A stretch of DNA of 64,000 bases from Fabrea salina (lineage: Eukaryota; Ciliophora; Heterotrichea; Heterotrichida; Fabreidae), in assembly GCA_022984795.1 (NCBI GenBank), contig JALIHJ010000054.1, positions 119,909 through 183,908 of the forward strand. Direction: 5' to 3'. Shown piece by piece: positions 1,216-39,521 of the stretch. The notes beneath the pieces were generated by a model. It did not search any database. It had not been told where the DNA came from and saw only the letters and a program-made list of their open reading frames with translations. The stretch's first letter is position 1; every line of letters begins with the position of its first letter. The translations under genes and the position numbers were made by a program.

Positions 1216-4200
1216 ATGTCTTCTGATAGCGATTTAGAAATTGAAGACTTGCAGGAGCAGTTACAGGAGTTTGAAGTCAGGGACTACCAAAGAGAAGTGT
1301 TAGCCCAGGCTAGGCAAAAAAACATCATTGCTTTTTTAGATACTGGAACTGGGAAGACTCTTATTGCACTTCTGCTCATCAAAGAAACTAGGGGCAAGTC
1401 CATCTTCTTGGCTCCTCACAGACACTTAATAACCCAACACTCCAAAGCTGCTGACTCACTTGACATACCCAACATAGCAATCTCAGGAGAAACAGCTGAT
1501 AATTGGAACATCCACAGGTGGAAGAAAACTTTGCAAAGCACAAACTGCATGATAATGACTCCTCAAATATACCTCAACTCTTTGAGGTCAGGCTACTTAA
1601 ACATTTCAGACTTTTCCTTGATGATCTTTGATGAGTGCCACCACTGCAGCAAGAAGCACCCTTACATGAACCTTATGCTGGAGTTCTACCACCCCTCTTC
1701 AACAAAGCCTAAAGTCCTGGGCTTGACTGCCAGTCCTGTTATTGACGCCAACATCAACCAAGAAGAAATGGTTAAAAGTCTCCAGGAACTCAGAGCTAAC
1801 CTAGACTGCGACTTTGCCCCTATTGACAGAAAAAGCGTAGAAGCCATTGCTAACAAGCCTAACTACGAAATCAAAACAGTTCCTTACGAACCAGAAAACC
1901 CCCTACTTAACTTTATGAAAAAGTATGCTTTAGAAATGCCCAACCACAAAGAAGCAAAGGAATTCAAAGACGAAATATCCTCAAAAGGGTTTTACTTGAT
2001 AGAAACAGTAGGAATTCACTCTTTCAAGACTTACCTGCGAAACCTTTTACCCAAAATTAGCTCTCAAGAAGCCAAAAGAGTTGCTGGGCAAATGATAGAA
2101 GTGGCCGAAGGGTCCCATGAAACCATTACTAAAAGAGTTGAAAAGCTTCTAAAAGTGCTTAAAGAACACCTAGACAAGAACCAAGCCAGTCAAGCAATAG
2201 TTCTCACACAAAGAAGAGTGACCGCCTGGTACCTTTCTATGATGATAAACTACATGTCGCTTCCCAACATAAAGTCCAAAGCCGTCGTAGGCAAAAACAA
2301 CAAAGAAAAGTTAAACACTTTTGTCATGGAAAGCAACTACTACCAAAAAGCTATTGGAGACTTCAGGAACAAAAAATACAATGTACTTGTAAGCACTACT
2401 GTTATTGAAGAAGGACTTGATATTCCTTCTTGTGACTTAGTAGTGCGCTTCGACAACTTGTCAACGAACCTCAGAAGTTATGTCCAAAGCAAAGGTAGAG
2501 CCCGCGACATGAACTCTAGGTTTTTAGTGCTGGCTCCTAAGGATTTAAAAGGGTCTATAAGGAGAGAACTTGAAGGCTACGAAAAAGCTATAACTTGGCT
2601 CAAGAACATGGCTGACACTGAATTGCCTAGTAAACCCACTGAGCAAGTCAAGCCTTTGAAGTCAGTGACTTTCCCAACCGGAGCTAAAGTGAGTGCCAAC
2701 TGGAGTGTCCAGTTTCTAAAGATATTTTGCAACGGAATTCCCTGCGACAAGTACACCAGGCACTCAGTGAGGTTTAACTCTAGGTACTACAGACCTGGAG
2801 AGTGCAAGTTGCCAGTTACTAACTCCGAAAGAGGAGGCTATTTAAGTTCATGTGAGCTACCTAAGATTCTGAACTGCGGACCTGTAACAGGTGAAACTTT
2901 GTACGAAAAAGAAGAACACGCTAAAGCTGACTCTGCTCTGGCAGGAGTCAAAGCTTTGAGAGAAAAAGGACTGATCAACGACTACCTTAAGCCTGTTTGG
3001 GACAATAGTGACCAATTAAACGCTGAAATAAACGATGAGTACTTTAAGCTTGTAGATGAAAGAGGAATGCGGTTTGTACTCAAAGACCCCCCTTTCAATG
3101 ACTCAGCACCTAGCTTTTTCCACCAAGACATTAGCTTCTTATCAGTAAAAGCTAGTTGTGCTTCTGAATTTTACGTTTACTACATGAAGTCCAGACCAAA
3201 ATACACCGAGAACTCAGATTACTCTTTAGGAGTACTTTCTCCTTTGCCAGTTCCAAGCGAAAGCTTCCAAATCTACCCTAAGAACTTGTACAAGTACAGA
3301 GGCGTTAATTTTATTCACAAAAACAAAAATAAAAACAGACATGCACCCAACGATCCCTGTCAAATATGCGACAAGTACCCTGTGTCTTTGACACCTACAA
3401 ATGTTAAAGTCCAGCTTGATCAGCCAAAAATTAAAGCTATCAGATCTTTTCACATAATTAACCACGCACTTATCACAGAAAACTACAATGAACTACTTGA
3501 AGCTCAAAGAAACGGACTCCTTCAAGTGCTGACGAGTCAAGAAGAAGACGTTCACGTTCCAGTTTGTTCAGTTCCTATAAAGAGTGGAAGCATTGACTGG
3601 TCAGTTATTCAAAGCACTCTTGAGCTATTTAGCAACGACCTCCAGTACATTCCAAGGACTCCTTCTGTGAAAACTGAAGGAAAAGCCGTTATCACCACTC
3701 ACAACAACTCTTGCTTTATCGTCATTAAAGAAATTGAAGACGCTCTTCATTTTGAATTTGATTACAAAAAAGCTTTGATCTCAGTCAAAGACTACTACTT
3801 GCAAAAGCATCAAATTCAACTCCGCAATGGCAGGATACTCCAAAGCAAACCTATTAAGAACTATGTGCAGGCACTCAGGCCCCATGTAACTCAAAAGGAC
3901 AGAAAAGACCAAGAACATTACATTCCAGTTGAGTTAAGTTCAGTTTTGCCTATACCTGCTGAGTACCTTATTTTGTCCAGACTGTACCCCAACATCTACC
4001 ACAAACTAACTCAACTATTTCTCACAAACCATCTTTCTAAGAGTTTAAGTCTGCAAATTAGGATTCCTTTGCTCATGGAAGCCCTTACTTGTACTTCTGC
4101 TCTTGAAAAATGCGACTACCAAAGACTTGAAACTTTAGGAGACAGTGTTTTGAAGTACCTTACTTCAGAGTTCCTTTACAGAACTACTGACTTAGCTTCA

Positions 4201-5337
4201 GAAGGAGTACTTTCAAGCAAAAGGTCTGCAATAGTATGCAACAATAGACTTTTCAACTTAGCCTTGGAACGCAAGTTTTATATGTACATGTTTGTGAACC
4301 CAGTTAGGCACAGTGGGTGGAAAGCTCCTGAACTTGAGAACTTAGAAGTGGATGCTTCTGACAGCGAAGAAGAAATTGAAGTGATTGAAGAAGCAGGTTG
4401 GGAAAAGCTACTAGACGAGTACGGAGAAATAGTGCTTAATTCCCAAAGAGAAAAAGTGGCCCTTTCTAACAAGCAACTTGCCGACTGCGTAGAAGCCCTT
4501 ATAGGAGCTGCTTTCCTAGAAGGCGGGTTTGACTTTGCTAAAAGGCTCTTGTATGAGTTCAAACTTATCAATCTTAGAGAAGGCGAAATTGCACAGTCTA
4601 TAAAGGAAACGGACAACTACGAGTCTTTAGAAGAGGACTTGGGCTACGTGTTTAAGGACAAAGGGTGGTTAGTAGAGGCACTAGAGCACTCTTCAACCAA
4701 CAAAGCTTATTCTTACGAAAGACTTGAGTTTTTAGGAGACGCTATTCTGGACATGGTAGTTATGGAGTTTCTGTTTTTCAAGTTCCCTAGAGCAAAGCCT
4801 GGGAGTCTTTCTAAAATGAAGTCTGAAGTTGTTAACAACAAGTTCTTAGCTTACATTGCAACGCAACTCAAACTCTACTTCTTTTTGAGGGAAGACAACC
4901 CTAACTTGCAAGAAGACGTTCTGAACTGCGCACAAGTTATAGAAGAAATGGAGTTTAACTCAATGAGTGACTTCAACAGGATTCCAGATGAAGACAACAA
5001 AGTTTTGGGAGATCTTTTTGAAGCGGTGATAGGGGCTATTTATATGGACTCTTCTAGTTTTGAGGAGTGCAAAAGAGTCATAATAGGCTTGACTTTAGAG
5101 TTTTTGGAAAAACTAGAACCTTCAGGGCTCAACCACCCCCACTCGAAGCTCTTTGAATGGGCTCAGAAAAACAGAATAGACAACTTAAAAGTTCAAAGGT
5201 TCAAACTCCAAAACTCCTTTGGAACGGAGTTCATCACTAAGATTTTTATCAGAGAAATTGAACTGGCTGAGGGAAGGCACTCTTCTAAGTACATGTCTTC
5301 TGTAAAGGCTGTTGAAAACTTTATGCGGTCTCGGTAA
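1216..5337 (+). CDS. Dicer-like ribonuclease III
   Basis: It cuts double-stranded RNA into small RNAs for RNA interference. The 1373-residue protein contains, in order: a DExH helicase (DTGTGKT near 42, DECHH near 138, GLTASP) with its helicase C lobe (EEGLDIP, and a Q-rich KGRARD motif VI); a Dicer dimerisation domain around 500-610; a middle region where a PAZ domain would be expected but is not obvious; RNase IIIa (YQRLETLGDS near 968, with ADCVEALIGAAF); RNase IIIb (YERLEFLGDA near 1166, with GDLFEAVIGAIY); and a C-terminal dsRBD-like segment. The acidic catalytic residues of both RNase III domains are present, so it should be active. The start is the first ATG, one base after the upstream stop. 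Confidence 0.95.
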   Translation: MSSDSDLEIEDLQEQLQEFEVRDYQREVLAQARQKNIIAFLDTGTGKTLIALLLIKETRGKSIFLAPHRHLITQHSKAADSLDIPNIAISGETADNWNIHRWKKTLQSTNCMIMTPQIYLNSLRSGYLNISDFSLMIFDECHHCSKKHPYMNLMLEFYHPSSTKPKVLGLTASPVIDANINQEEMVKSLQELRANLDCDFAPIDRKSVEAIANKPNYEIKTVPYEPENPLLNFMKKYALEMPNHKEAKEFKDEISSKGFYLIETVGIHSFKTYLRNLLPKISSQEAKRVAGQMIEVAEGSHETITKRVEKLLKVLKEHLDKNQASQAIVLTQRRVTAWYLSMMINYMSLPNIKSKAVVGKNNKEKLNTFVMESNYYQKAIGDFRNKKYNVLVSTTVIEEGLDIPSCDLVVRFDNLSTNLRSYVQSKGRARDMNSRFLVLAPKDLKGSIRRELEGYEKAITWLKNMADTELPSKPTEQVKPLKSVTFPTGAKVSANWSVQFLKIFCNGIPCDKYTRHSVRFNSRYYRPGECKLPVTNSERGGYLSSCELPKILNCGPVTGETLYEKEEHAKADSALAGVKALREKGLINDYLKPVWDNSDQLNAEINDEYFKLVDERGMRFVLKDPPFNDSAPSFFHQDISFLSVKASCASEFYVYYMKSRPKYTENSDYSLGVLSPLPVPSESFQIYPKNLYKYRGVNFIHKNKNKNRHAPNDPCQICDKYPVSLTPTNVKVQLDQPKIKAIRSFHIINHALITENYNELLEAQRNGLLQVLTSQEEDVHVPVCSVPIKSGSIDWSVIQSTLELFSNDLQYIPRTPSVKTEGKAVITTHNNSCFIVIKEIEDALHFEFDYKKALISVKDYYLQKHQIQLRNGRILQSKPIKNYVQALRPHVTQKDRKDQEHYIPVELSSVLPIPAEYLILSRLYPNIYHKLTQLFLTNHLSKSLSLQIRIPLLMEALTCTSALEKCDYQRLETLGDSVLKYLTSEFLYRTTDLASEGVLSSKRSAIVCNNRLFNLALERKFYMYMFVNPVRHSGWKAPELENLEVDASDSEEEIEVIEEAGWEKLLDEYGEIVLNSQREKVALSNKQLADCVEALIGAAFLEGGFDFAKRLLYEFKLINLREGEIAQSIKETDNYESLEEDLGYVFKDKGWLVEALEHSSTNKAYSYERLEFLGDAILDMVVMEFLFFKFPRAKPGSLSKMKSEVVNNKFLAYIATQLKLYFFLREDNPNLQEDVLNCAQVIEEMEFNSMSDFNRIPDEDNKVLGDLFEAVIGAIYMDSSSFEECKRVIIGLTLEFLEKLEPSGLNHPHSKLFEWAQKNRIDNLKVQRFKLQNSFGTEFITKIFIREIELAEGRHSSKYMSSVKAVENFMRSR

Positions 5338-25467: not shown

Positions 25468-27231
25468 ATGGACGACCAGATTGTAGGAGAAAGGACTGCA
25501 CAACAGAGATACTTAAAACATTTAGAAAAGCTAGGACTAGATGAGTCGTTTTCGACCCATGTAGACTCAGGAAGGTGTCTTCCTTCTGACTGTTGCTCTG
25601 AGTCCTCTAATCTAACGCTTTTATCTGAGAATTCCTCAGAACAGAAAATTTCGAAATTGCACTACGAAGAGTCAGTTCAATTACCAGAAAACTTAGAAGA
25701 GTTCTATAAAACCAAGAGGAAACTCAATTCTAGGCTATGGGAAGCAGCTTCGAAAGGGAACTTTACAAGTTGCAAAGTCATTTTGAAAGAAAAAGAAATC
25801 GGCCCAGACACAGAATGGCTAGGACCCGGAGGGTTGAGTGCTTTACATATTGCGGCTAAAAACGGTTACAAGTTGGTTTGCAAATTGCTGTTGCCAGTTA
25901 CACACATAGATGTCAGAGACAGAAACGGAAAAACCCCTTTACATCTATGTGCGAAGTACAATCAAGTAACTACTCTAAAACTCCTGATCAAAAAAGGAGC
26001 AAACATCAATGCACTCGACGATCAAAAAAACACTCCACTGCACATATCGATCAAAAAGAACAACTTAGAAGTTACAAAAGTTCTTATTTCCAAGAGTCCT
26101 TGTTTGCACATTGCCAACAGGCACTCGCATACAGCTTACAAGCTCCTTAAGTTGCATAACTTGAGTTACCTTTTGAACACAGACAAACTCCAAGTTCTCA
26201 AAGCTGAAAGCTGCGAAGTCACTGCTATGTTTAAAGGAAACGAAACGGTTGCTAAAGTTTCCTTACCAGAAGAAAGTCATGTTACACTAAAGGACTTTGG
26301 AGTTATTTCTATGCTTGGAAAAGGAAGCTTCGGAGAGGTTTACTTAGTGCAGCTCCAAACCACTAAAGAGTTGTACGCAATGAAGCTCCTAGACAAAACT
26401 CAAGTTTTAAGACACAACTTACTTAAATACGCTATGACTGAAAGGAACGTGCTTTCCCGAATCAGTCACCCTTTCATTTGTTCACTGCACTTTGCGTTCC
26501 AAACAAACGAGTATTTCATACTTGTACTCTCTTACTGCTCAGGGGGTGACCTCAGCTATGCCATCCGCAGAGAAAAGTACTTTTCAGAAGAAAATGCCAA
26601 GATCTACGCATGCGAAATCATTTTGGCACTGGAGAAACTTCACCAACTAGGAATTGTGTTTAGGGACTTGAAGCCTGAAAACGTGGTGTTGGACTCTAAA
26701 GGACACGCTATGCTTACTGACTTCGGACTATGTAAAGAAGGCATTTGGGACAACACAAGTGCTAAGTCTTTTTGTGGGTCAGTGGCATACTTAGCACCGG
26801 AGATCATCATGAAAAAAGGGCACGGGATGTCTGTGGACTGGTACTTACTTGGAGTGCTTTTGTACGAGATGCTTGTAGGGATACCTCCTTACTTCTCAAA
26901 TAACCAAGACCAACTGTTTTGCAATATACTGAGAGGCAAACTCAAAATGCCCACGCGCATTAGTGACTCAGCACAAGATTTGATAGTTAAGCTGCTCAAT
27001 AGGAACCCTCTGAAGCGACTTGGAAGTGAAAGGGGAGCAGAGGAACTGAAAGAACACAGATTCTTCCAAGGAACTGACTGGGAAGCTGTATATAACCGGG
27101 AACTAAGCCCCCCTGAGCCTAGTACTAAGCAAGTAATACCTTCTAATTTTTCCACTCAGCAAGTGGTAGGGGATACCTGTTCAAGTAATCGTTTCCAAGG
27201 ATGGACTTTCGTACAACCTAATAACTTGTAA
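25468..27231 (+). CDS. Ankyrin-repeat AGC-family protein kinase
   Basis: A 587-residue kinase. After an acidic N-terminus come about three ankyrin repeats (about 100-210; LSALHIAAKNGYKLVCKLLL, KTPLHLCAKYN, NTPLHISIKKNN). An AGC catalytic domain follows (about 270-535): GKGSFGEVYLV, catalytic Lys in YAMKLL, VFRDLKPENVVL (Phe in place of the HRD His), DFGLCKEG, and the activation-loop SFCGSVAYLAPE. The AGC tail ends with hydrophobic motif FQGWTF. This suggests activation by a PDK1-like kinase and control through the ankyrin module. The pairing of ankyrin repeats with an AGC kinase is seen in protists more than in animals. The exact substrate is unknown. Confidence 0.9.
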   Translation: MDDQIVGERTAQQRYLKHLEKLGLDESFSTHVDSGRCLPSDCCSESSNLTLLSENSSEQKISKLHYEESVQLPENLEEFYKTKRKLNSRLWEAASKGNFTSCKVILKEKEIGPDTEWLGPGGLSALHIAAKNGYKLVCKLLLPVTHIDVRDRNGKTPLHLCAKYNQVTTLKLLIKKGANINALDDQKNTPLHISIKKNNLEVTKVLISKSPCLHIANRHSHTAYKLLKLHNLSYLLNTDKLQVLKAESCEVTAMFKGNETVAKVSLPEESHVTLKDFGVISMLGKGSFGEVYLVQLQTTKELYAMKLLDKTQVLRHNLLKYAMTERNVLSRISHPFICSLHFAFQTNEYFILVLSYCSGGDLSYAIRREKYFSEENAKIYACEIILALEKLHQLGIVFRDLKPENVVLDSKGHAMLTDFGLCKEGIWDNTSAKSFCGSVAYLAPEIIMKKGHGMSVDWYLLGVLLYEMLVGIPPYFSNNQDQLFCNILRGKLKMPTRISDSAQDLIVKLLNRNPLKRLGSERGAEELKEHRFFQGTDWEAVYNRELSPPEPSTKQVIPSNFSTQQVVGDTCSSNRFQGWTFVQPNNL

Positions 27232-27245
27232 TTTCTTGCAATAAA

Positions 27246-28766
27246 ATGGAAGAAGTTTACAACTACAACGTAGGTGTTTTAGGCCACATAGACTCTGGAA
27301 AAACCAGCATTGTCAGAGTACTTTCAGAAGTGCTTTCAACAGCTGCGCTTGACAAGCACCCTCAGTCAGCTGAGCGAAAGATTACTTTGGACTTGGGGTT
27401 CTCGGCGTTTAGAATGCCTATGCCTGAGAAGTTTGGGCCAGGCACTCTGCAAATAACCTTGGTAGACTGTCCTGGGCACGCTAGTCTTATCAGAACAGTT
27501 ATAGCAGGAGCTTCAATAATAGATAAAATGCTACTTGTGATCGATGCTACCAAAGGAGTCCAAACCCAAACTGCAGAGTGCATTGTCATAGCTGAGCTGT
27601 TAATTAAGGGTCTTTTGGTAGTAGCTATTAACAAAGTCGACTTAGTTGAAGAAAAGAAACTAGAAGCCCTGGAAAAAAAACTAAGGGCTTTGTTCATGAA
27701 AACTAGGTTTAAGGACAAAGTTGCTTTTGTAAAGGTAGCTGCTGCTCCTAGAAGTGGGGATCCAATTGGAGCTGAGAACCTAAAAAGCACATTGGTAGAC
27801 TCTATTGAAGAGTTGCCTGATAGAGAAGTTGACGAAGCACTTTATTACGCGGTCGATCATTGCTTTCCAGTAAAAGGACAAGGAACTGTTATGACTGGAA
27901 CTATTTTGCAGGGATCGTTGAAAGTAGGAGACACTGTTGAAGTGCTTCAGTTGAACGTAACTAAAAAAATCAAGTCTATGCAGTCGTTCCACAAGCCTAT
28001 TTCTTATGCTAAAAAAGGAGACAGAGTAGCTGTGTGTGTGACTCAGTTTGACTCTAAGTTAATTGAAAGAGGAATTGTTTCCAGACCTAATACACTCAGG
28101 TTAGTTTCCAGTTGTATCATTAAAGTCAACCCTATTCAGTACTACACCTACCCTATAAAAACTAACTCAAAGTACCACATTACTTGTGGCAACGAGACTG
28201 TAATGGGTTCTTGTGTGTTCTTCAGTTGTGCTAACGAAGAGTCTAAGTCAGGAGAACCCTTTGCACACAACTTCGAACCTGAACTGGTTTACTCGTACGA
28301 AGACACTATATCTCTGAACCAGCCCAAAAACTACTTTGCCCTTATGACTCTAGACTCCCCAGTGTGCACTTTGCAAGGAGGAGTGTTGATAGGTTCCAAA
28401 CTAGACTTAGACACAACCACTAAGAAGTGCAGAATTGCTTTTGCAGGGGTGGTGGAGGTAATTGAACCAGAAGTGAACTGCACTTACTTAAAGGTTTCCA
28501 AACCCAAAGAAAGAAAAGGTGAAGTAGAAAGGATTCAGGACCCCTACACTGCTATTTGCAAAGGCATGTTTCACAAAGAAAGCGACCTCACTAAGTTCCA
28601 GGGACTTAAAGTAGAAGTAGCAGGAGCCGTTGCTTACATCCAAAGCAGTTTTGGCAAAAGCGGAAAGTTCAAAATAAACTTTCCTGAAGGCAACGCTTGC
28701 ATGGGAGAAGTAGTTCTTAGGTTCAAAAAGCTTCTGTGGGATAATTATCATAGACTAATACAATAA
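27246..28766 (+). CDS. EEFSEC: Selenocysteine-specific elongation factor eEFSec
   Basis: It delivers Sec-tRNA to ribosomes at recoded UGA codons. The 506-residue protein has the EF-Tu-like GTPase domain (GHIDSGKTS, the switch ITLDLGFSAF, VDCPGHASLIRT, NKVDL) and domain 2 with VDHCFPVKGQGTVMTGTIL, characteristic of eEFSec. A domain 3 with GDRVAVCVTQFD follows, then the eukaryotic domain 4 ending near FGKSGKFKINFPEG. Similarity to animal eEFSec is high through the whole length. Its presence implies a selenoprotein system in a cell where TGA also serves as an ordinary stop. Confidence 0.95.
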   Translation: MEEVYNYNVGVLGHIDSGKTSIVRVLSEVLSTAALDKHPQSAERKITLDLGFSAFRMPMPEKFGPGTLQITLVDCPGHASLIRTVIAGASIIDKMLLVIDATKGVQTQTAECIVIAELLIKGLLVVAINKVDLVEEKKLEALEKKLRALFMKTRFKDKVAFVKVAAAPRSGDPIGAENLKSTLVDSIEELPDREVDEALYYAVDHCFPVKGQGTVMTGTILQGSLKVGDTVEVLQLNVTKKIKSMQSFHKPISYAKKGDRVAVCVTQFDSKLIERGIVSRPNTLRLVSSCIIKVNPIQYYTYPIKTNSKYHITCGNETVMGSCVFFSCANEESKSGEPFAHNFEPELVYSYEDTISLNQPKNYFALMTLDSPVCTLQGGVLIGSKLDLDTTTKKCRIAFAGVVEVIEPEVNCTYLKVSKPKERKGEVERIQDPYTAICKGMFHKESDLTKFQGLKVEVAGAVAYIQSSFGKSGKFKINFPEGNACMGEVVLRFKKLLWDNYHRLIQ

Positions 28767-28768
28767 AT

Positions 28769-29821
28769 ATGGGAGCTTGCAACTGTAAAAAGCAAAACAC
28801 TGAAGAAGATGTAAAGTTCGAAATTAAAGTAGAAGATGAAGGTTTGCAGAGAGAAAATACTGCAAATGGAGAAACTATTGACTTTCGACCTGAAGCTTCT
28901 CTGAACAAGCTTCTAGGTTTAGCACAAGCACAGGGAGCCCTAAGGGGCTACTTAACTCGAAAACTTTATAATCTGCAAAAGCTACAGCTCTCCCAACAAG
29001 TAGTGTCCTCACTTAACTACGAAGAACTCAATCAAGTTCCAGTGCACATGTTGTCTGCTTCTGCAAAAGCTGTGCATGAAAAACTAGGTAGTTTCTTAAC
29101 TACTGAAGCTCCTCCGCAAAAAGGTCCCACCAAACTCCCAGACTCGACTGTTTACTTGGGCTTTTGGAACGAAAAAGGACAACCCCACGGTCCAGGAACT
29201 CTTTACTTGCAAGACGGGTCGATTTATGAAGGAAACTTTTCGAACGGAAAGATCCAAGGAAAAGGACGCAAAATCAACAGTTCAGGAGATGTTTATGTGG
29301 GAGAGTGGCAAGACGGGAAAATGCACGGAAAAGGCCGAATTGAGTTTGAAGCAGGAGGCTACTACGACGGAGAATGGAAGTCAGACGTGATGGAAGGCAA
29401 AGGAATTCAAAGTTGGAGCGACGGAAGTAAATACGAAGGGGAGTTCAAAGAAGGACAAAAGCACGGTAAGGGCAAGATGGAACTGCCTGACGGGAGTTTT
29501 TACGAAGGGGACTTCAACAAAGACTCGATAGAAGGAGAAGGCAGGTATGTCTGGAGCAACCAAAAAGAGTACTCTGGAGGTTGGAAAGAAAACAAAATGC
29601 ACGGAAAAGGAACCTTCAAGTGGCCAGACGGGAAGTACTACGAAGGAGGTTACGACATGGACAAAAAAAGCGGCTGGGGGTTGTTTGTGTGGCCTGATGG
29701 GAAGAAGTTCGAAGGAGGGTGGCTGAACGGGAAGCAACACGGAGAAGGCACTCTTTACTCAAAAACGGGGAAGGCGAAAAAAGGCGTTTGGGAAAACGGC
29801 AAACTGAAAAAGAAGTCATAA
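28769..29821 (+). CDS. Acylated MORN-repeat protein
   Basis: A 350-residue protein starting MGACNCKKQ, a myristoylation plus palmitoylation signal. It has an IQ-like helix near residue 55-70 (AQGALRGYLTRK) that could bind calmodulin. About nine tandem MORN repeats span residue 130 to the end (units such as KYEGEFKEGQKHGKGKMELPDG). MORN proteins bind phospholipids or serve as membrane and cytoskeleton scaffolds, common at the ciliate cortex. It begins only 2 bp after the eEFSec stop. The role is inferred from the repeats. Confidence 0.9.
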   Translation: MGACNCKKQNTEEDVKFEIKVEDEGLQRENTANGETIDFRPEASLNKLLGLAQAQGALRGYLTRKLYNLQKLQLSQQVVSSLNYEELNQVPVHMLSASAKAVHEKLGSFLTTEAPPQKGPTKLPDSTVYLGFWNEKGQPHGPGTLYLQDGSIYEGNFSNGKIQGKGRKINSSGDVYVGEWQDGKMHGKGRIEFEAGGYYDGEWKSDVMEGKGIQSWSDGSKYEGEFKEGQKHGKGKMELPDGSFYEGDFNKDSIEGEGRYVWSNQKEYSGGWKENKMHGKGTFKWPDGKYYEGGYDMDKKSGWGLFVWPDGKKFEGGWLNGKQHGEGTLYSKTGKAKKGVWENGKLKKKS

Positions 29822-29889: not shown

Positions 29890-31842
29890 ATGAAGACAGA
29901 AGAACTCGACATCTCTGGAAAAGAAATAAAGGGGTATCGGGTGATTAAACCCATTGGGCAAGGTAAATTTTCTATCGTCTACAAGGCCCAACGGATCGCC
30001 GATAACCAGCAAGTTGCACTCAAAATGATCAAGATTTTCGACATGATGGACCCCCAACAAAGAGAAAAGTGCCTTAAAGAAGTGCGTTTGCTGGAGTCTC
30101 TAGACCACCCCCACATCATTAGGTACTTGGACTCCTGCATCGAAGACAACGAGCTCCTCATTGCTATAGAGTGGGCTGAAAGGGGAGACCTCAAACGTGT
30201 GATCAAGCGCGCCCAAACAGAAGAAAGCTACATCGAAGAGTCCCGCATTTGGGAGTACATGCACCAGTTAGCCTCTGCTTTGTCCCACATGCACGAAAAA
30301 CGCATTATGCATAGAGACTTGAAGCCTGCTAACATCTTTGTAGCTTCAGATGGGCGGTTGATTCTAGGAGACTTAGGACTGGGCAGGTACTTGTCAAGCC
30401 AAACAATGGAAGCCTACTCGAGAGTAGGAACTCCGTTGTACATGTCTCCGGAAGTACTTAAAGGCAAAGGTTACGATTGGAAAAGTGACGTTTGGAGTTT
30501 GGGATGCGTGGTTTACGAGCTTGCTTCTTTAAGGTCGCCTTTTAAGAAAGAAGACAGCAAAATGAGTTTGTACGACTTGTTCCACACGATCAACAAAGGA
30601 GAGTTCCCTCCCTTACCTGACAGATACTCAGAGGAGCTCAAACAGATCGTAACGCATATGATCCAAGTAGACCCTACTAACAGACTTAGTGTGTCCCAAG
30701 TAGAAGAACTTTGCGAAATCCACCTTAAAACTGCAGTGAAGAAACCCAGAATAGACCCTTTCTTAGTCATGGATGACATCCACGAAAAACTGCACTTGCT
30801 AGACTACACTGCTAATTTTTGTAAAGTTTACGGCAAACCACCACTGACTCGTATTTATTTTGCACATTTAACTAACCAAGAAGAACAGTTTGACTACTTT
30901 TACTACTTGTCTTACTGGCTGATGTCTTTGAAAAACAAAAAGCACACTCCCAAAACAAAAGACTCTGAATCTTTACTCACGGATGTAAAGTCTTTCGGGG
31001 TCAAGTTGCCTGAAAACGTGAACCAAAATAGTGTCAGTCAAGGCTACGGAGAAACAGTGTGTTTTATCATAAACGACTTACTCAATAAAGAACTCATTCG
31101 CAGAGACTTTAAGTTCTTAACTCCTCAAGTTTTTGAAAACGGAAAAAGCGTCTACGGCACAACTGGACCTCAAGAGAACGAAGTAGTTGAAGAAATCGAT
31201 ATGGAACTTGAAGACGACAAAATAATCAAGTGGGAAAAAGAGGAGTTCTTGTTTCCCAACACAGGGTCTACTAACATTACTGATTCTGGAGTTTCAAGTG
31301 AAAAGGAAGAAGACATAATCACTTCTTCCGTGAAACCTGAAGACTGGTACGAAGAGTGCAAACGAGTTGAAAAGCACCTAGCGATTTCTGAACCTCCGCC
31401 TGAGAACTGGCAACTCAGAGTGTCTCAGTTGAGTACTTCAGTAGCTGAAATAAGTGCTTTCCAAACCAAGACTTGGGAAGTTTTAGGTGCTCAGATCGAC
31501 AATGAACTCCAGCGCGTTAGAAGAGGAGAGTTACTTATGCAGAAAATGTGCGACCAAGAAGTCCAGGAACTAGTTTCAGTTATTCAACTTAAGAAACAAC
31601 TGGCTTCTAAACTCAAAGAACTGCGTTCTGTAGTTTCCAAGCAGTGTGAAGAATTCGACAAACTCAAAGACCAAGAATACCAAATTGCGAAAAACATAGA
31701 ACAGCACTCCAAAAACATGCGCGACGACTCTGTGTTATCCAAACTTAAGCAAGAGTTCTCTAAGTTAAAGCAAGAACTAAAACTCCTTGAACAGAAACAA
31801 GAAATAGCTCGGTGGCAACTTGACCACTACTTAGCTGAGTAA
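29890..31842 (+). CDS. NEK6/7-type kinase fused to IFT57 (intraflagellar transport)
   Basis: One uninterrupted 650-residue frame joins two proteins that are normally separate. Residues about 15-278 are a NIMA-related kinase: Gly loop GQGKFSIVY, catalytic Lys45 (VALKMIKI), HRDLKPANIF with Asp143, and GDLGLGR (the DLG variant typical of NEK6/7), then VGTPLYMSPE. Residues about 288-650 match IFT57: VMDDIHEKLHLLDY start, NQEEQFDYFYYLSYWL, a GYGETVCFIINDL block like IFT57's GYGEHVCYVLDCL, then acidic linker and C-terminal coiled coils. IFT57 belongs to the IFT-B train. An internal Met294 sits just where a free IFT57 would start, but no stop codon separates the parts. Confidence 0.88.
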   Translation: MKTEELDISGKEIKGYRVIKPIGQGKFSIVYKAQRIADNQQVALKMIKIFDMMDPQQREKCLKEVRLLESLDHPHIIRYLDSCIEDNELLIAIEWAERGDLKRVIKRAQTEESYIEESRIWEYMHQLASALSHMHEKRIMHRDLKPANIFVASDGRLILGDLGLGRYLSSQTMEAYSRVGTPLYMSPEVLKGKGYDWKSDVWSLGCVVYELASLRSPFKKEDSKMSLYDLFHTINKGEFPPLPDRYSEELKQIVTHMIQVDPTNRLSVSQVEELCEIHLKTAVKKPRIDPFLVMDDIHEKLHLLDYTANFCKVYGKPPLTRIYFAHLTNQEEQFDYFYYLSYWLMSLKNKKHTPKTKDSESLLTDVKSFGVKLPENVNQNSVSQGYGETVCFIINDLLNKELIRRDFKFLTPQVFENGKSVYGTTGPQENEVVEEIDMELEDDKIIKWEKEEFLFPNTGSTNITDSGVSSEKEEDIITSSVKPEDWYEECKRVEKHLAISEPPPENWQLRVSQLSTSVAEISAFQTKTWEVLGAQIDNELQRVRRGELLMQKMCDQEVQELVSVIQLKKQLASKLKELRSVVSKQCEEFDKLKDQEYQIAKNIEQHSKNMRDDSVLSKLKQEFSKLKQELKLLEQKQEIARWQLDHYLAE

Positions 31843-31863: not shown

Positions 31864-32715
31864 TTACCTTAAACGCTTGACGTTCTCCACTACGTCATAC
31901 TCTTCAAGGGCCATAGAGTCTACACTAGCGTCCACTCCCATAGAACTTCCTACACTCTCGCCTATGCCCATACTTTCTCTGCCGCCTGTGTCTATTTCTT
32001 CTTCTTCAACTTCTATTTCCTCGTCGATTTCTTCAAAGTCGTCAGTGTAAGCTTGATCGCTATCGTTGCTGTCTTGACTCGGAATGTTTTTGAGAGGTGG
32101 TATTTTGTTTTCTTTAGGGGGCTCATCTGGAGCTTGCCAGTGCCTTACTCTTCCTTTAGGTTCCAAAGGAGGAAGTTCTGGTTTTTTTTCCTGAGGTTTC
32201 TCTTGAGGTTCTTTATCTTGCTTAGAAACTTCTTCTTCTTTGGAGGACTGCTTAGGCAAAAACTTAGCTTCTTCAGGAAACTTTTTGGACTTGTCAGGTG
32301 ATAAAAACTGCTTAGGGGATTCTAGTTGGAGTTTTTGTTTAGGAGGACTCTTAGTAGTTTTGCGTTTGAAAGTGTCAATAAGTGAAAAAATAAGCGGGAC
32401 TTCAGGTTTACTTTCTAGTCCAAGTTGTTGACTAAGTGACTTGGTGTCTACAGAGTCGTTAACTTTAGCTTCTTGGAGAAAAACTGAGTGAGAGTAGTTT
32501 ATGCCACCAGTTTCTAAAAAATCCTTGAATAGTTCTGTTGCAATGCGCCCTTCTTGGGTCTCTGAAATCTTTTCAGCTTCACTAGTTTTCAAAGCAACTT
32601 TGTTTTGTTGACTTTGAATTGCACTGAACACACTGCTGCGCAGTTGGGCCCGAATGGTGTCAAGTACTCCGTTGCTGTCTAATGAGTTAATCACTAGTTC
32701 CTTTAAATCTTCCAT
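31864..32715 (-). CDS. FOP/CEP43-like centrosomal protein
   Basis: A 283-residue protein. The N-terminus (ELVINSLDSNGVLDTIRAQL) matches the TOF/LisH dimerisation motif of FOP, FOR20 and OFD1. It is followed by a second helix pair (ATELFKDFLETGGINYSHSVF, partly quoted), as in FOP. A Lys/Pro-rich middle and a very acidic C-terminus (DDFEEIDEEIEVEEEE) also resemble FOP. These proteins anchor to centrosomes or basal bodies. It is placed directly 3' of the NEK-IFT57 gene in convergent orientation, though linkage need not imply function. Confidence 0.75.
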   Translation of the reverse strand: MEDLKELVINSLDSNGVLDTIRAQLRSSVFSAIQSQQNKVALKTSEAEKISETQEGRIATELFKDFLETGGINYSHSVFLQEAKVNDSVDTKSLSQQLGLESKPEVPLIFSLIDTFKRKTTKSPPKQKLQLESPKQFLSPDKSKKFPEEAKFLPKQSSKEEEVSKQDKEPQEKPQEKKPELPPLEPKGRVRHWQAPDEPPKENKIPPLKNIPSQDSNDSDQAYTDDFEEIDEEIEVEEEEIDTGGRESMGIGESVGSSMGVDASVDSMALEEYDVVENVKRLR

Positions 32716-33018: not shown

Positions 33019-36000
33019 CTAGTCCAAGTCCAGCAAGTATGAGTCTATTTCTTTTGACAAAGAACGCACTTCGATTTTTTTGTGCCAGCTGAACTCAAAG
33101 TTTCCAGCCAGAATTTCTTTAGTAGCTTCACTCACTGCAATCTTCCCTTGAACTCCGTTGCTTTCAATCTTGTTTGCAATTAAAACGTCAGGTCCATAAA
33201 TATCATACCTCACTATGCTCGTGCCAGCAATCCCTCCTATCACTTCTCCAGTGTGCATTCCTATCCTCATGTTAAGTTGAGTTCCGTACTCAGCATTGAC
33301 ATCTCTGATGTTCTGCAGCAAATCCACAGCAAAACAAATCATGTTGTACGCTTCAGCTGGAGGGTCTCTGCAGGTGTCACCAGCGTTCCCCATCACAACA
33401 TAGCAGTCCCCAATGGTGTGGACTTTGTAAACGTTGTGCTTGACACACAAGTGGTCGAACTTGGTGAATAGCTCTGAAAGCATTTCTACTACTTCGAGGG
33501 GTCGTTTGTCGGAAGACCAAGAAGTAAAACCTACTATGTCTGCGTAGATCATCGTAACTTCTGAGACACTGTCTGTCATGGTTGACTCTTCTTTAAGTTG
33601 TTCGTAAACGTGAGGAGGCATCATCTTAGTAAGTAGGTCTTCTGTTTTTTTGAGTTCTTTTAGAGAACGTGACTTAATGGTTGAAAGTTCCCTTAGTTTG
33701 CTTTCACGGTAGTACAGAGTTACTAGTGATATTCCTATGAAGATCATAGTGAATATAACCACTTCTCCTCTTTCCTCAACTCCGCTTCCTATGAACAACT
33801 CTGCTGTGCTCATCATAAAAGCTAAGATAGTAGTCCAAAGTATGTCGCTGTAAAATAGTTGACTGCAGTGTGTCATCAAAATGAAATGGTACAGGTTCTT
33901 TATGTAAAAGAGTTCTTTGGTGTCTTCATCGTGCAAACTTCCTAGTGTTAAGTTCCAAACGAAGCTCGCCAGGTATATTGCTTGAAGCATCCAAGAATAC
34001 CAAGTTTTAGTGTAGTACTTCTTTTGCAGCTGTGCAAAAGCTGTGTAAGTAACTGCTTCAAGCAGCGTAAGTCCAAAGAACACGTAGTAGTCCCCTTGAT
34101 TACGGTAGATAGTGTAAGCCAGGGCCAGCACACTGATGAAGATCTTAGTCACAGCAGTTACTTTGAGTCCGTAAATTATTACGTTGTACCTGTTTTCCAG
34201 AGTAGAAGCTCTAAAAGCCCTTTCGTTTTCAGAGTCATTGCAGCAACACGCAAGTATAGCTATTTTGTCTACTAAACCTGTTTCGCTCCTTTTAAGTAAC
34301 TCACGTGTGTTGTTTATATCCATAGTTTGCAAAATAGCATTGGCTGTACTGGCAGCTCCATTGAAGTTCTGAGGGACACCTAAGTTGGCGCTGGGTCTAA
34401 TTCTTAAACTAGACTCTTCAGGTCCAGTTTTCACACTCACTTTAAAAGTTTTAAGCTGGCCTTTGCCTTTAGCCTCCACCCAGTTAGGTTCAAAGCTCAG
34501 CCCACTTTTATCGCCTAGTAGTTCAAAGCATTCATTTGAAATCTGAATAGAGTTTTGTATGGAGTTAGTAGAGCACATTCGACTTGCAGTGTTAACAGTG
34601 TCCCCAACCAAAGAAAACTGGGGTTTATGAGCACCCACAACCCCAGCTGTCACAACTCCAGTGTGGATTCCTATTTTGACTTGGAGGTAAGACCCGTCTA
34701 TAAGGTAAATATGATTGAGTGAGTTAATGATAGAAACGCCTAACTCAACTGCCCTGCGGGCATGGGGTACTTGAGTAAACGCAGGGTCCAACTCAGCTTC
34801 GCTGTCTTTTAAGCCTGCACAAGCCATATAAGTGTAGCCTACGGTTTCTATTTTAGTGACTCCCACAGCTTCACAGATCTTGTCGAATTCACTAAAGACT
34901 TTGTCCAAGAAGGCCGTGAGTTCTTGCGGAGAGTACATAGTAACTATCTTGTCAAAATGAGAAATGTTGCAGAAAACAATAGAAACTGTTCCCTGTTCTT
35001 CTGCTATGTACCTAACTCCGTTTTTAACTCTTTTCCTGACAAAAGCTGGCAGAATGTACTTTAGCACGTTTTCGGACTTTTCCATCTCAATGCGTCTTTT
35101 TTTGAGAAGTATAAACTCGTCCCTTTTAGACTTGTCTAGTTGGTAAGCAATGATTCCAGCAGTAGATGTAATTGCTAAGTAGTAAGTAATGTAAAACAAA
35201 CTCATAAACGCAAAAGCAAACCCTGATTCTTGGTTCCAAAAGTAAATTAAAGCGTTTGAAATGCTGAAAACTGTGCAAAGTGCGTTTACAAAAACCATGT
35301 ACATCCACTGAGAACTCAGTGCAATGAAGTAAATCAAAGGGAATATTCCAAACCTAACTACTGAACTTTCGTTTTCAAAAAAGATAGACACAGCTAAAGT
35401 AAGTATTGAAAACAAGTAAAAAGCAGGAATGAAGTACCTGAACACTTTCAGAAACAAACTACTAAAGGAGACTATTGCAAACATCAGCACTATTATAGTA
35501 AGAATAGCTTGTAGAATCAGCCTGGCAATGTCCCTGTCTTGACTAATCAGCGTGAACAAAAAGGCCGATAAAATAAACGAAAAGATCATTGAAAATATGA
35601 ACTTGAAGTAGCCTGCAACTTGGTAAGAAAGTTCGGTGTTGTACTCACTTTCTAGTTTGTTGGACACGAATCTCAGTTTTTTGAAGTTGATGTCTAGGTT
35701 GTATACCTTAACTGCCACAAAGTCTTTGGTTTTTTTGTAAACTTGTTGCAGTTTGTTTTTAAACTTAGAAAGAGGCTTAGCGAGTTTTATTTCTATTCTT
35801 TGTTGTGGAGAAAGGTGCTTTAGCAGTTCCAAAGGCCCAGGCGAAACCAAGTCTTTGTATCTACTCCAAACGTAACTTACTGCCAAACAAGCTCCAGCTG
35901 AAGCAAGTATTTGAGTTAACAAAACTGAGGGAAGGGTGTTTGAATCCCCTAATACTAGCACTAGAGTAACTACTATTAAAGCTGATATTAAGTGACTTGC

Positions 36001-39000
36001 CACTGTAAAGATGTTGAAGCTCCGAGTGTAAAGAATACTCATTAAGCTAATTGCTAGATAACTTGATATGAACAAGTAACCTTCAATCAAGTAGTAATTT
36101 TCAGTATAACCATCTTTGGACACTACTTGGGACTGAAAAAACACTCCAAAAGTAATGATTAGCAAAGCAAGAACTACTCCCTGCAAAGCGAACCCAAGTG
36201 TATTTTTCCATGTGAACCAAAAAGCAGTGACTCTGTAGACGTCGGGGTTTCTAAGAACTTTAGGAAAGGGTATGTGCTCATCAAAAAGAGCATTAATACC
36301 TAAAGCTGAGCTCAAAATTAACAAAAGCAACAAACGAGGCTCTATAAAGTAGCCTGCTAGCTGCAGCAAAGTGATCAAGCAAGCCAAAGAAATATAAATC
36401 AAAGCCATCTGTGTAAGGCTGTTGTTTGACTTCTGGCCCAAATTCAAGCATAGGTCCTTAAGTTGAGAGAATTCATCAAGTTGGACGTCACTGAACTCAG
36501 CTGTACTGTTGTTTCTTAAGCAAACTGATATGTGGGACTGACTTATCATTCCAATGTCGCTTCGGTTCTTGCCTACAGAAAGCACCACTGGAGAAGTTGA
36601 AAAGTTGTTTCTGAGGAGTTGGGCCACCATAGCTTTGTGGGAAGGCAGCAAGGAGTGGAATATTACGTTTTCTGCAGAAAACAACAAAATAGTAAGAAGC
36701 TTTCTGATCTGTGAAGAGTGTTTTGCAAACTCAAGTGGGTAAGAGTCTAAGCATACTATGTACTTGACTCTTTCGGGGTCAAAAGGCCGGTTTAAGGTGT
36801 TGATTTGGGAGTTCTTGACGAGTGGTTCGAAAATGGTTTTTTTCTTAAGGTTGATTTTAGAGTCTACTCTTGATATTCTGGCTAAACTTCTCCTTTTTGA
36901 AAAGTTTCTGTCGCGTTTATACTCCTGAGTGCTTTTGTCGTTGGATTCATACAGTGTGGAAACCCTGTTTCCTCTGAAAATTTCTTCTTTGATGCTGACT
37001 CCGCTTAGTCTTTCTAAGGCAAACAAGTGGAAGTTCACTAAGTCTTGAAGCTTTATAAGCATTTCTTCTTCAGACTTGATTCCGTTGATTTTAGCTACTT
37101 CAGTGAAGTGGTCAATTATGCCTGAACTAAGTCCAGCACTCATCACATTTTCTTCGGAGTCTCCACTGACTATCCAAATGTTTATTCCAGCTACTTTAAG
37201 TGCACTTAGTGAATCCTTGGTTTCTTGCGATATAACTTCTTGCAATCCCAGTATGCCTAATAAAGAGGACCCTTGTTGGTACTCCTCCAGCACACCTTCT
37301 ACTCTTCCTCGGGAGTTAACTGGCGACAAAAGTGCGTGTGTGTAAGCATACTTAAACTGTTTGTATTCTTCGTAACTCAGTTCTTTGTAAGCTAAGTACA
37401 GTTGTCTCATTCCTCTGATATCGTGGAGCTCCAGCATGTCTTCTAGTTCTTCAATTTTAGAGTCAGTTAAGTTCGTGAAAGGAATTACATTTTCGTAGTT
37501 TCCTTTCATGTACAGGTAAGTTTCGTCAGTGTCAAGGTTCCGAACAACTATGCGGTGGTAGTTAGCAACAGTGCTTTGTCCTAAGATTTCAAAGTTGTAG
37601 TTGCAGCCTGACGCACTTATAGTGGCGTAGTTGGAGTCTTTGAAAGTAAGGGTTGCGCCTAACATTTGGGCATGTTCAACTATTTTTTTGTCAATATGAA
37701 TTAGCGATGAAAAGTCTGACTTGGTTGGCACAACGTTTTCACAAAGAGTCATTGCAAAGATGAAGTGCAGGACTTCTGGAACTCCGAGTTCAAAGTCTTG
37801 TTTTAGGTTTTCAAAGGTCAGCAGTTCGTTTTTAAGCAGCTGAGTTGACTCTTCAGGACTGTTTGACCAGAAGTTCCAGTAAAGTTCGTCTTTGATAATG
37901 CAGGTCCTTACCTCAAGGCGGTCTTCAGTGATGGTTCCTGACTTTTCTATAAGCATGTAGTCCACGGTGCCAAGTTGGTCTATTATATTGAAGTTTTTGA
38001 ACTGGGTGTCTTGGGAGTTTGCTCTTAAGCCTTGAGCTACCTTAACTACTTCTAACACCAAAAAAAGAGGAATGGGCACCAAGGTGCTGAAGGAATTCAG
38101 GTACTCTAAAAAGTTAGAGAAGAAGTTCAGCTCTCTGAACTCACCGTAGTAGTCTAGCAAACTAAAAACTAATGAAAATGCCAAGGCTGCTGCTACACCT
38201 ACTAAAGAGATGTAGTTGCATTTTTCTTCAATGTGAGTAGAGCTTTTAAAGGTCTTTTTGAAGTTCAGCCATACTTTTGTTTGCATTCCTGTGTAAGTGG
38301 CAATCCCCACCACCCACTCAGTTTCTTTGAGTTTGCTTCCTCTAAGGATCAAGTGGTTAATGCTTAAGTCTGCAGCTTTGGGAGAACTAGGGTCTTTGTA
38401 CTTGCCTTCAAAGTAGTTGAAGTCTGCTGAAGGCTGTGAAGCTTTAATGGTTCCATATGTATAAGACAGCTCAGGCAGAACTTCACTTAAAGGCTGGTCT
38501 TCATCAGGAAGCTCCCGAATGGGGTACTTGACTTGCAAGTTTTTAACGCCTTTGATTCTGAACTCGTCGACTGTGATCTTTTCTGAACCACACAATATGA
38601 GCAAGTCTGCTGGAACTTTGTCGCCTTCGTTGACAAGAACTATGTTTCCTACTTTGATTTCTCGACTTGGAAGTTCAGCAAATTCTTGTCCATTCCAAAC
38701 TTTTACAGGGGACTTGTTAATACGAGCTTCAGCTTTCAATGTTTTGAGATAAGCACTTAGTTCCCAGAAAAAAGAAGTTGATAAGAGCAGCACTAGAGGA
38801 AGGAAGATTTCTAAAGAAAAAGAAATAATACTTGAGTAAACTACCAACAAGCAAGTGAAAAAGACAATTGGGACTTTCTGGAGTTTTGAAATAAAGAAGT
38901 AAAGGAAGAAAGCTTCAGTCGACCGCACAGAGTTGTTTGGGTAAAGCGAGTCTTTGGTTCTACTCTGGAAGTGGAATTCGATAGTCCTAGAGTAGTTTTC

Positions 39001-39027
39001 GTTTTTGGTTTCTTCTGGAGTAGTCAT
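33019..39027 (-). CDS. P4-ATPase-like/guanylyl cyclase fusion protein
   Basis: A 2002-residue membrane protein of the alveolate type known from Paramecium, Tetrahymena and Plasmodium. The N-terminal half follows P4-ATPase (flippase) topology, but key residues are lost: the phosphorylation loop reads EKSGTIT with Glu361 instead of Asp, the hinge GDGAND motif is GKNRSD, and the DGET site is missing. So it is probably a pseudo-ATPase. Two six-helix blocks each precede a cyclase domain. C1 (near 1347) has Asn/Tyr at the metal positions but keeps VNTASRM. C2 (near 1824) keeps both metal Asps (YADIVGF, GDCYVV). The product is presumably cGMP. The ATG at 39027 is used; a longer frame starts with TTG. 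Confidence 0.95.
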   Translation of the reverse strand: MTTPEETKNENYSRTIEFHFQSRTKDSLYPNNSVRSTEAFFLYFFISKLQKVPIVFFTCLLVVYSSIISFSLEIFLPLVLLLSTSFFWELSAYLKTLKAEARINKSPVKVWNGQEFAELPSREIKVGNIVLVNEGDKVPADLLILCGSEKITVDEFRIKGVKNLQVKYPIRELPDEDQPLSEVLPELSYTYGTIKASQPSADFNYFEGKYKDPSSPKAADLSINHLILRGSKLKETEWVVGIATYTGMQTKVWLNFKKTFKSSTHIEEKCNYISLVGVAAALAFSLVFSLLDYYGEFRELNFFSNFLEYLNSFSTLVPIPLFLVLEVVKVAQGLRANSQDTQFKNFNIIDQLGTVDYMLIEKSGTITEDRLEVRTCIIKDELYWNFWSNSPEESTQLLKNELLTFENLKQDFELGVPEVLHFIFAMTLCENVVPTKSDFSSLIHIDKKIVEHAQMLGATLTFKDSNYATISASGCNYNFEILGQSTVANYHRIVVRNLDTDETYLYMKGNYENVIPFTNLTDSKIEELEDMLELHDIRGMRQLYLAYKELSYEEYKQFKYAYTHALLSPVNSRGRVEGVLEEYQQGSSLLGILGLQEVISQETKDSLSALKVAGINIWIVSGDSEENVMSAGLSSGIIDHFTEVAKINGIKSEEEMLIKLQDLVNFHLFALERLSGVSIKEEIFRGNRVSTLYESNDKSTQEYKRDRNFSKRRSLARISRVDSKINLKKKTIFEPLVKNSQINTLNRPFDPERVKYIVCLDSYPLEFAKHSSQIRKLLTILLFSAENVIFHSLLPSHKAMVAQLLRNNFSTSPVVLSVGKNRSDIGMISQSHISVCLRNNSTAEFSDVQLDEFSQLKDLCLNLGQKSNNSLTQMALIYISLACLITLLQLAGYFIEPRLLLLLILSSALGINALFDEHIPFPKVLRNPDVYRVTAFWFTWKNTLGFALQGVVLALLIITFGVFFQSQVVSKDGYTENYYLIEGYLFISSYLAISLMSILYTRSFNIFTVASHLISALIVVTLVLVLGDSNTLPSVLLTQILASAGACLAVSYVWSRYKDLVSPGPLELLKHLSPQQRIEIKLAKPLSKFKNKLQQVYKKTKDFVAVKVYNLDINFKKLRFVSNKLESEYNTELSYQVAGYFKFIFSMIFSFILSAFLFTLISQDRDIARLILQAILTIIVLMFAIVSFSSLFLKVFRYFIPAFYLFSILTLAVSIFFENESSVVRFGIFPLIYFIALSSQWMYMVFVNALCTVFSISNALIYFWNQESGFAFAFMSLFYITYYLAITSTAGIIAYQLDKSKRDEFILLKKRRIEMEKSENVLKYILPAFVRKRVKNGVRYIAEEQGTVSIVFCNISHFDKIVTMYSPQELTAFLDKVFSEFDKICEAVGVTKIETVGYTYMACAGLKDSEAELDPAFTQVPHARRAVELGVSIINSLNHIYLIDGSYLQVKIGIHTGVVTAGVVGAHKPQFSLVGDTVNTASRMCSTNSIQNSIQISNECFELLGDKSGLSFEPNWVEAKGKGQLKTFKVSVKTGPEESSLRIRPSANLGVPQNFNGAASTANAILQTMDINNTRELLKRSETGLVDKIAILACCCNDSENERAFRASTLENRYNVIIYGLKVTAVTKIFISVLALAYTIYRNQGDYYVFFGLTLLEAVTYTAFAQLQKKYYTKTWYSWMLQAIYLASFVWNLTLGSLHDEDTKELFYIKNLYHFILMTHCSQLFYSDILWTTILAFMMSTAELFIGSGVEERGEVVIFTMIFIGISLVTLYYRESKLRELSTIKSRSLKELKKTEDLLTKMMPPHVYEQLKEESTMTDSVSEVTMIYADIVGFTSWSSDKRPLEVVEMLSELFTKFDHLCVKHNVYKVHTIGDCYVVMGNAGDTCRDPPAEAYNMICFAVDLLQNIRDVNAEYGTQLNMRIGMHTGEVIGGIAGTSIVRYDIYGPDVLIANKIESNGVQGKIAVSEATKEILAGNFEFSWHKKIEVRSLSKEIDSYLLDLD

Positions 39028-39077
39028 TTTCAGAAAATTATTAGAAGTTTTGAGTTTAATACTTATAGCTTTAATAA

Positions 39078-39521
39078 ATGAACTCAAGGTACAAGGGAAC
39101 CCTGTGTCAAAGTAACTCTAAAAAGGTTTTTTTCAGACGAGGTTATCAAATCAAAAAGGAAAAATTAAGGAACATTTCTTCATTGTCAAGTAGGAATTTA
39201 GTCTCCAGTAGGAACCTTAAAAAACCCAGTGTAGAAGTGTCTAACTTAACTCCAAGTTTTATTCAACAAAGTTCTGTAACTAGTCTTACTAAAAAAATCG
39301 TCCTGCCTAAAAACTACTTACCTTACCGACCTTGTTCTCGAATAAGGTTTTTGAGTCAGGAGTCCACTGGGAAAAGAAGTGTTACAACTGCTACTAACCA
39401 AGACTCAACTGGCTTGCCTCGGAGAAGCAGAGTTGTGTTTAATAGAATGAGGACTCCCCTGCCTTGGCTTTGTGAGAACAGACCTGATGACTCTCCTATT
39501 TGCCACCTGGATGATCTATAA
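39078..39521 (+). CDS. Small basic protein of unknown function
   Basis: I do not recognise a family. The 147-residue product is rich in Ser, Arg and Lys, has no membrane segment, and probably is largely unfolded until the C-terminal RTPLPWLCENRPDDSP segment. It starts 50 bp from divergent guanylyl cyclase and ends 11 bp before the RCC1 gene. The clean frame from ATG to TAA filling the whole gap is the main support that it is a gene. Confidence 0.55.
   Translation: MNSRYKGTLCQSNSKKVFFRRGYQIKKEKLRNISSLSSRNLVSSRNLKKPSVEVSNLTPSFIQQSSVTSLTKKIVLPKNYLPYRPCSRIRFLSQESTGKRSVTTATNQDSTGLPRRSRVVFNRMRTPLPWLCENRPDDSPICHLDDL

Follow-up and report, generated by a model that had tools for sequence, protein, structure and literature searches.

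A NEK6/7-type kinase joined in one reading frame to a diverged IFT57 paralogue in the ciliate Fabrea salina

A single open reading frame in the Fabrea salina genome encodes a NEK6/7-type protein kinase followed by a complete IFT57 domain. It was found in a 64,000-nucleotide stretch of contig JALIHJ010000054.1 (positions 119,909–183,908), referred to here as the window. The best explanation of the encoded protein, with a probability of about 0.55, is a NEK6/7 kinase that would carry its own targeting module for ciliary transport, derived from IFT57. The frame runs on the forward strand from an ATG at 29890 to a TAA ending at 31842, with 650 codons and no internal stops. A stop-free run of 650 codons has a chance of about 8e-18 at the base composition of the frame, and the other two forward frames contain 49 and 46 stops over the same interval. 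The gene is divided as follows.

29890..31842, + strand: the whole fusion, a NEK6/7-type kinase and an IFT57 paralogue, 650 codons plus stop, with two-domain homologues in other assemblies
29935..30702, + strand: protein kinase domain, residues 16–271, from the PF00069 match, the likeness to Nek7 and the positions of motifs
30703..30756, + strand: junction, residues 272–289, running directly into the IFT57 domain, with the join motif found in relatives
30757..31125, + strand: N-terminal part of IFT57 (CH domain), residues 290–412, with Met294 internal, from Pfam and the profile alignment
31126..31323, + strand: acidic, poorly conserved linker, residues 413–478, 31.2% identical to Blepharisma P0004
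31324..31839, + strand: C-terminal coiled-coil part of IFT57, residues 479–650, from the Pfam match (to residue 640) and comparison with stand-alone IFT57s

Both halves score well above the Pfam cut-offs. The Pkinase family PF00069 matches residues 16–271 with 222.3 bits (cut-off 31.7), and the IFT57 family PF10498 matches residues 294–640 with 186 bits (cut-off 40), covering profile positions 1–356 of 360. When PF10498 was run as a control on 14 prokaryote genomes, there were weak matches in three of them and none above the cut-off. The PF10498 part consists of the CH part and then the coiled coil, which begins near a conserved motif (W486, E489, R492-V493), and the solved structures closest to the C-terminal part are the IFT57 chains of 8bd7 and 8ruy (72.2 and 71.4 bits). 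With the frame open and both domains over their cut-offs, the fused NEK-IFT57 frame is confirmed, as the original prediction of a NEK6/7-type kinase and a complete IFT57 domain with no stop between them had it. A scan for bacterial-type promoters and terminators at the join found none, a result that carries no weight in a eukaryote.

By similarity, the fused kinase is a member of the NEK6/7 subfamily. Its closest solved structure is Nek7 (289.9 bits), ahead of NEK1 (176.5) and NEK2 (173.8), and it is 52% identical to human NEK7. With NEK7 as the query against the F. salina genome, the fused gene ranks first (289.5 bits), ahead of a kinase scoring 213.2. A kinase tree of 52 sequences was made from 35 fused proteins, 14 other kinases of the same genome, and human NEK1, NEK2 and NEK7 (a single sequence for each); NEK3–5 and NEK8–11 were left out, and the 14 compare with 138 and 145 matches scored in two genome searches. 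The 35 fused kinases form one group in this tree (support 100/99), and together with human NEK7 they lie on one side of a branch that separates them from the 16 others (100/99). The three kinases of the genome that rank next after the fusion (L018–L020) fall with other NEKs, not with NEK7. No second NEK6/7-type kinase was found in the genome by a six-frame search, which is blind to introns and could therefore miss a gene that is split; a second NEK6/7 gene is rejected as far as such a search can tell.

The catalytic core is intact in sequence, with Lys45, Glu64, HRD and the D of DLG all present. The motifs are GQGKFSIVY at residue 23, VALK at 42 (containing Lys45), HRDLKPAN at 141, GDLGL at 160 and MSPE at 185. 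The DLG had been singled out as a variant; it is present, but it is no oddity – human NEK7 has GDLGLGR at the same place. Human NEK7 (PDB 8ej4, 2wqm) shares with the fused kinase the DLG, the HRD and an activation-loop Ser before VGTP. The activation loop of the window protein includes Ser177, within the kinase domain, and a Ser before (R/K)VGTP is found in the activation loop of all 35 fused kinases. At residue 80, 34 of the 35 have Leu and one has Tyr. NEK7 has a Tyr there, presumably the autoinhibitory Tyr97. Autoinhibition may accordingly be weaker in the fused enzymes than in NEK7, which is offered as a lead only. NEK6 and NEK7 consist of little beyond a bare catalytic domain. The fused kinase differs in having about 360 residues of IFT57 homologue after the catalytic domain, and where members of the subfamily typically lack a C-terminal regulatory domain, the window protein has an IFT57 domain at residues 294–640.

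The F. salina genome (18,328,466 bases in 103 contigs were searched) contains a second IFT57, which is intact and stand-alone (L001:1444–2607, 387 amino acids). This is the more canonical of the two, with a PF10498 score of 351.6 bits versus 188.1 for the fused gene in the same search, and it is 70.8% identical to Blepharisma P0057 and 63.3% identical to P0069, the stand-alone IFT57 found in Stentor. The IFT57 half of the window protein is 26.2% identical to it overall, with 37.7% identity in the CH part and 20.1% in the coiled coil. At such identities, binding to IFT172 or IFT38 may have been lost from the fused protein. Because there is a separate, more canonical IFT57 in the genome, the fused half is best classed on sequence as a diverged paralogue, and the possibility that the fusion is the sole IFT57 is ruled out. 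The proposal that each train would carry the kinase in a fixed proportion does not follow when the genome has L001. A second intact stand-alone IFT57 used for IFT was one of the results that the original prediction had named as counting against it; L001 is such a gene, though use of it in IFT is not something that its sequence can demonstrate.

The fusion is not confined to F. salina. A search with the IFT57 part found 12 proteins, ten with both kinase and IFT57 and two (P0010 and P0013) with IFT57 alone. A profile built from eight fused proteins found both domains, according to the Pfam column of the database, in 52 of 54 matches, the exceptions being the same two; this count covers the best candidates only, the 7994 sequences sharing most words having been scored. 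P0010 is probably a truncated fusion, since it starts inside the IFT57 domain, is close to P0008, and carries a NIMA-kinase name at its source. Pfam was run on ten of the 52 fused proteins, and in all ten both domains were over the cut-off. The join, HRD, DLG and (S/A)PE are found in all 53 proteins (the window protein and the 52 from the database). The glycine-loop motif is found in 16 of the 53, and most of the rest lack it because their sequences begin after it, owing to a missing 5' exon or to being a fragment. Many of the relatives have a common start in the kinase N-lobe, M-D-P-K-Q or similar: P0006, P0007, P0008, P0011, P0012, P0014–P0021, P0025–P0034 and P0046 share it to within one residue. 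It is as if there were an intron just upstream of this point in the species of these relatives; the gene in the window has none there. P0040 has a bacterial-looking N-terminus ahead of the C-lobe of the fused kinase, and is probably a chimeric contig.

Blepharisma stoltei has two fused proteins, P0004 and P0005, which share the architecture and the join of the window protein and are 60% identical to it overall. The two species differ in copy number: the F. salina genome has one fused copy, the other of its two PF10498 matches being the stand-alone gene. The branches leading to P0004 and P0005 are short for the kinase (0.009 and 0.021) and longer for the IFT57 part (0.12 and 0.16). Among the matches listed from the shared-word search, which worked within length limits, none of the fused proteins was labelled Tetrahymena, Paramecium or Stentor, and this is not to be taken as absence from those genera.

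Sequence conservation extends through the junction among the nearer fused proteins. Residues 273–289 are 64.7–76.5% identical to those of P0004, P0005, P0006, P0008 and P0026, 58.8% identical to those of P0015, and 35.3–47.1% identical to those of P0009, P0023, P0047 and P0048. The length of the junction shifts by about one residue in some relatives; P0046, P0048 and P0055 stand out with a clearly longer or altered junction. These comparisons bear on whether the fusion could be an artefact – a lost stop or mis-assembly that leads to read-through of adjacent genes – or could yield a second product starting at Met294. Genes in this part of the genome lie only a few bases apart (e.g. 28766/28769), so that a lost stop could fuse neighbours. 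However, the same join is found in proteins from several collections, one of them a transcriptome source: P0023 is fused and its ORF is marked complete, so both halves are on one message there. In addition, the fused IFT57 lies apart from the other IFT57 of the genome in the tree described below. An artefact was rejected on the basis of the shared join.

Met294 had been regarded as the place where a free IFT57 would begin, with two products as a consequence. This Met belongs to the N-terminal motif of IFT57, in which it is conserved, and its counterpart lies inside stand-alone proteins, at residue 20 in the one encoded by the same genome and at residues 23, 25 and 28 in P0057, P0078 and P0013. 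(The Met pattern was tried on seven other stand-alones and matched these three, not the other four.) The nearer fused relatives show conservation of the residues around the join, just before Met294, so that a separate start there is without support; the idea of two products was dropped, and Met294 was rejected as a start. Artefact and second product taken together are very improbable as an account of this gene.

To trace the origin of the IFT57 half, 66 IFT57 domains (35 fused and 31 stand-alone) were placed in one tree. The fused set, which was also used for the kinase tree, consists of the window protein and 34 of the 52 database proteins. P0002 and P0051–P0054 were left out as near copies, and P0034–P0045 and P0055 as short or truncated, P0040 having in addition its foreign-looking N-terminus. 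The stand-alone set consists of 29 of the 74 stand-alones found, P0013, and the protein from the F. salina genome, and includes proteins from animals, Blyttiomyces, Stentor and Blepharisma. All 35 fused domains are on one side of a branch with support of 100/99, and L001 sits among the stand-alones, apart from the fused IFT57. The fused IFT57, being split from all 31 stand-alones in the tree, is not an orthologue of them. That the fused proteins are one group in both the IFT57 tree and the kinase tree suggests one old fusion event, and the simplest history would be a single duplication of IFT57 and a single fusion to a NEK6/7 kinase. The best tree has the fused proteins and 12 stand-alones together on one side of a branch (96/90). 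Of the 12, nine are heterotrich-type and the others are P0075, P0082 and P0083; a tree in which the fused proteins were forced to group with the nine heterotrich-type stand-alones only was not rejected (p-AU 0.189). P0046, P0048 and the set P0047/P0049–P0054 are more distant fused relatives. P0046 and P0048, both on long branches, come out as a pair in the IFT57 tree, which makes their placement unsure.

IFT57 is a subunit of IFT-B2 (chain M of 8bd7). The fused form resembles it in matching PF10498 over nearly the whole length, and differs from it in being a paralogue outside the stand-alone group, in having a kinase in front, and in having a less conserved coiled coil. According to PMC10191852, the N-terminus of IFT57 is a CH domain, whose binding partner in the anterograde train is the first WD domain of IFT172, on the periphery of IFT-B2; the coiled coil is paired with IFT38 and lies against IFT54/20 and IFT88. 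The two parts have fared differently in the fused protein. The window protein and Blepharisma P0004 are 82.5% identical in the kinase, 56.9% in the CH part and 39.0% in the coiled coil; for the stand-alone IFT57 of F. salina and Blepharisma P0057, the identity is 77.9% in the CH part and 71.6% in the coiled coil. Mean column conservation, from 35 fused proteins and 15 stand-alones, is 0.62 fused versus 0.56 stand-alone in the CH part and 0.39 versus 0.55 in the coiled coil, values that are a guide only since the sets differ in species make-up. Of the columns that are near-invariant in the 15 stand-alones, the 21 in the CH part are retained on average in 71% of cases among the fused proteins and the 18 in the coiled coil in 56%, a modest difference between sets of, again, differing species make-up.

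In the preferred reading, one protein combines a NEK6/7-family kinase with a C-terminal, diverged duplicate of the IFT-B subunit IFT57. The IFT57 part would be a targeting module that delivers the kinase to the transport machinery of basal bodies and cilia, probably mainly via the CH domain, the better kept of the two parts. Because the fused protein keeps the CH part better than the coiled coil, the CH part is most simply seen as an address label, by which the kinase would come to sit either on the periphery of the transport complex or at its base. There the kinase could act on components of the train or the axoneme, and in this way tune loading, remodelling, or the length and disassembly of the cilium. 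The fused protein would be present at sub-stoichiometric, regulated occupancy, rather than as a constant IFT57 subunit of each train. NEK activity promotes the shortening or disassembly of cilia in Chlamydomonas, Tetrahymena and mammalian cells (PMC12144771), and NEKs are also tied to these processes in Parker et al. 2007 (PMC2031824). Taken together with a CH address label, this would mean that NEK6/7 is wired to the ciliary transport machinery.

The coiled coil could be interpreted in another way. If the fusion took the place of IFT57 entirely in some IFT-B complexes and its coiled coil paired with the one IFT38, then some trains would have a kinase built into the core. Nearly the whole length of IFT57 is kept, as the hhalign alignment of the fused and stand-alone profiles (358 columns, 100% probability) shows, and the coiled-coil residues W486, E489 and E547 are present in 35/35 fused proteins. 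The families of IFT38, IFT20 and IFT54 (Cluap1 is taken to be IFT38, and MIP-T3 to be IFT54) have one match each in the genome, so these partners would have to serve both IFT57s. But the coiled coil, which contacts IFT38, IFT54/20 and IFT88 (PMC10191852), is less constrained than the CH part, with the 39.0% identity to Blepharisma given above versus 71.6% for the stand-alone, and the W, R, H and Q that stand-alones have at columns 507–513 are kept in only 13, 2, 2 and 12 of the 35. An alternative train subunit is an unlikely role for the fusion.

About as unlikely is a role outside transport altogether, in which the IFT57 part would be a dimerising scaffold, e.g. at basal bodies, contractile fibres or the spindle, with the kinase working there. 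The low overall identity to the stand-alone IFT57 (26.2%) and the relaxed coiled coil are consistent with such a role, as is the fact that several CH residues near-invariant in stand-alones have been lost. In the DDP motif, one Asp is kept in none of the 35 fused proteins and the Pro in 13; N329 is kept in 11, F334 in 10, and the Leu at 394 in 7. These losses also speak against the reading of the CH part as an address label. Yet F324, Q333, W343, G385 and G387 are kept in all 35 and E388 in 32. The retention of these six residues suggests that the CH fold is kept in the fused proteins, and perhaps its binding surface too.

A further step from the targeting-module reading is put forward tentatively, with the odds somewhat against it: NEK6/7 may not have been a free enzyme in F. 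salina and its relatives since an ancient fusion tied it to the cilium, and on some of the trains, in a regulated proportion, the fused paralogue may either replace IFT57 or bind IFT172 next to it.

Several other genes of the window were noted as well. The gene at 31864–32715 (− strand) converges on the fusion and encodes a FOP dimerisation domain (35.6 bits), which is of a centriole or basal-body type of protein. Beyond it, at 33019–39087 (− strand), a frame of 2022 codons encodes the domains of a phospholipid-translocating-type P-type ATPase and two nucleotide cyclase stretches; P-type ATPase-cyclase proteins are a known kind in ciliates and apicomplexans. A multi-domain kinase with ankyrin repeats and then a protein kinase domain is encoded at 25468–27231 (+ strand), and a eukaryotic selenocysteine elongation factor (GTP_EFTU, euk_SelB_III, eEFSec_4th) at 27246–28766 (+ strand). 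Given this elongation factor, F. salina probably makes selenoproteins, and some of its UGA codons may be recoded. A Dicer-like protein, with a helicase, a Dicer dimerisation domain and two RNase III stretches, is encoded at 1216–5337 (+ strand). The genome is very packed, with gaps between frames of 2 bases (28766–28769) and 14 bases (27231–27246).

No description of a NEK-IFT57 fusion was found in literature searches, which covered titles and the openings of abstracts among the matches listed, with subscription papers mostly outside them; within that scope, the statement that no described fusion of this kind was known stands. The combination is already in the databases, where it has gone unremarked. 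The Blepharisma entries are named as kinases only – P0004 and P0005 are an "unnamed product" at NCBI, and the UniRef name starts "non-specific serine/threonine protein kina". Other NEKs likewise have an N-terminal kinase and then an interaction module, in the form of C-terminal protein-binding domains, as described in Parker et al. 2007 (PMC2031824), the same source in which Tetrahymena sequences are placed in the Nek6/7 clade. They differ in that the module is not an IFT subunit, and the term "IFT" is absent from the main text of PMC2031824.

The retention, in diverged species, of a NEK fused to a relative of a train subunit suggests that the transport machinery is a site of its action. A link between NEK6/7 and IFT57 or IFT172 is conceivable also in organisms in which the proteins are separate. 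If the further step set out above is true, F. salina and its relatives would have trains with a kinase built in, and this kinase would control the length, turnaround or disassembly of the cilium.
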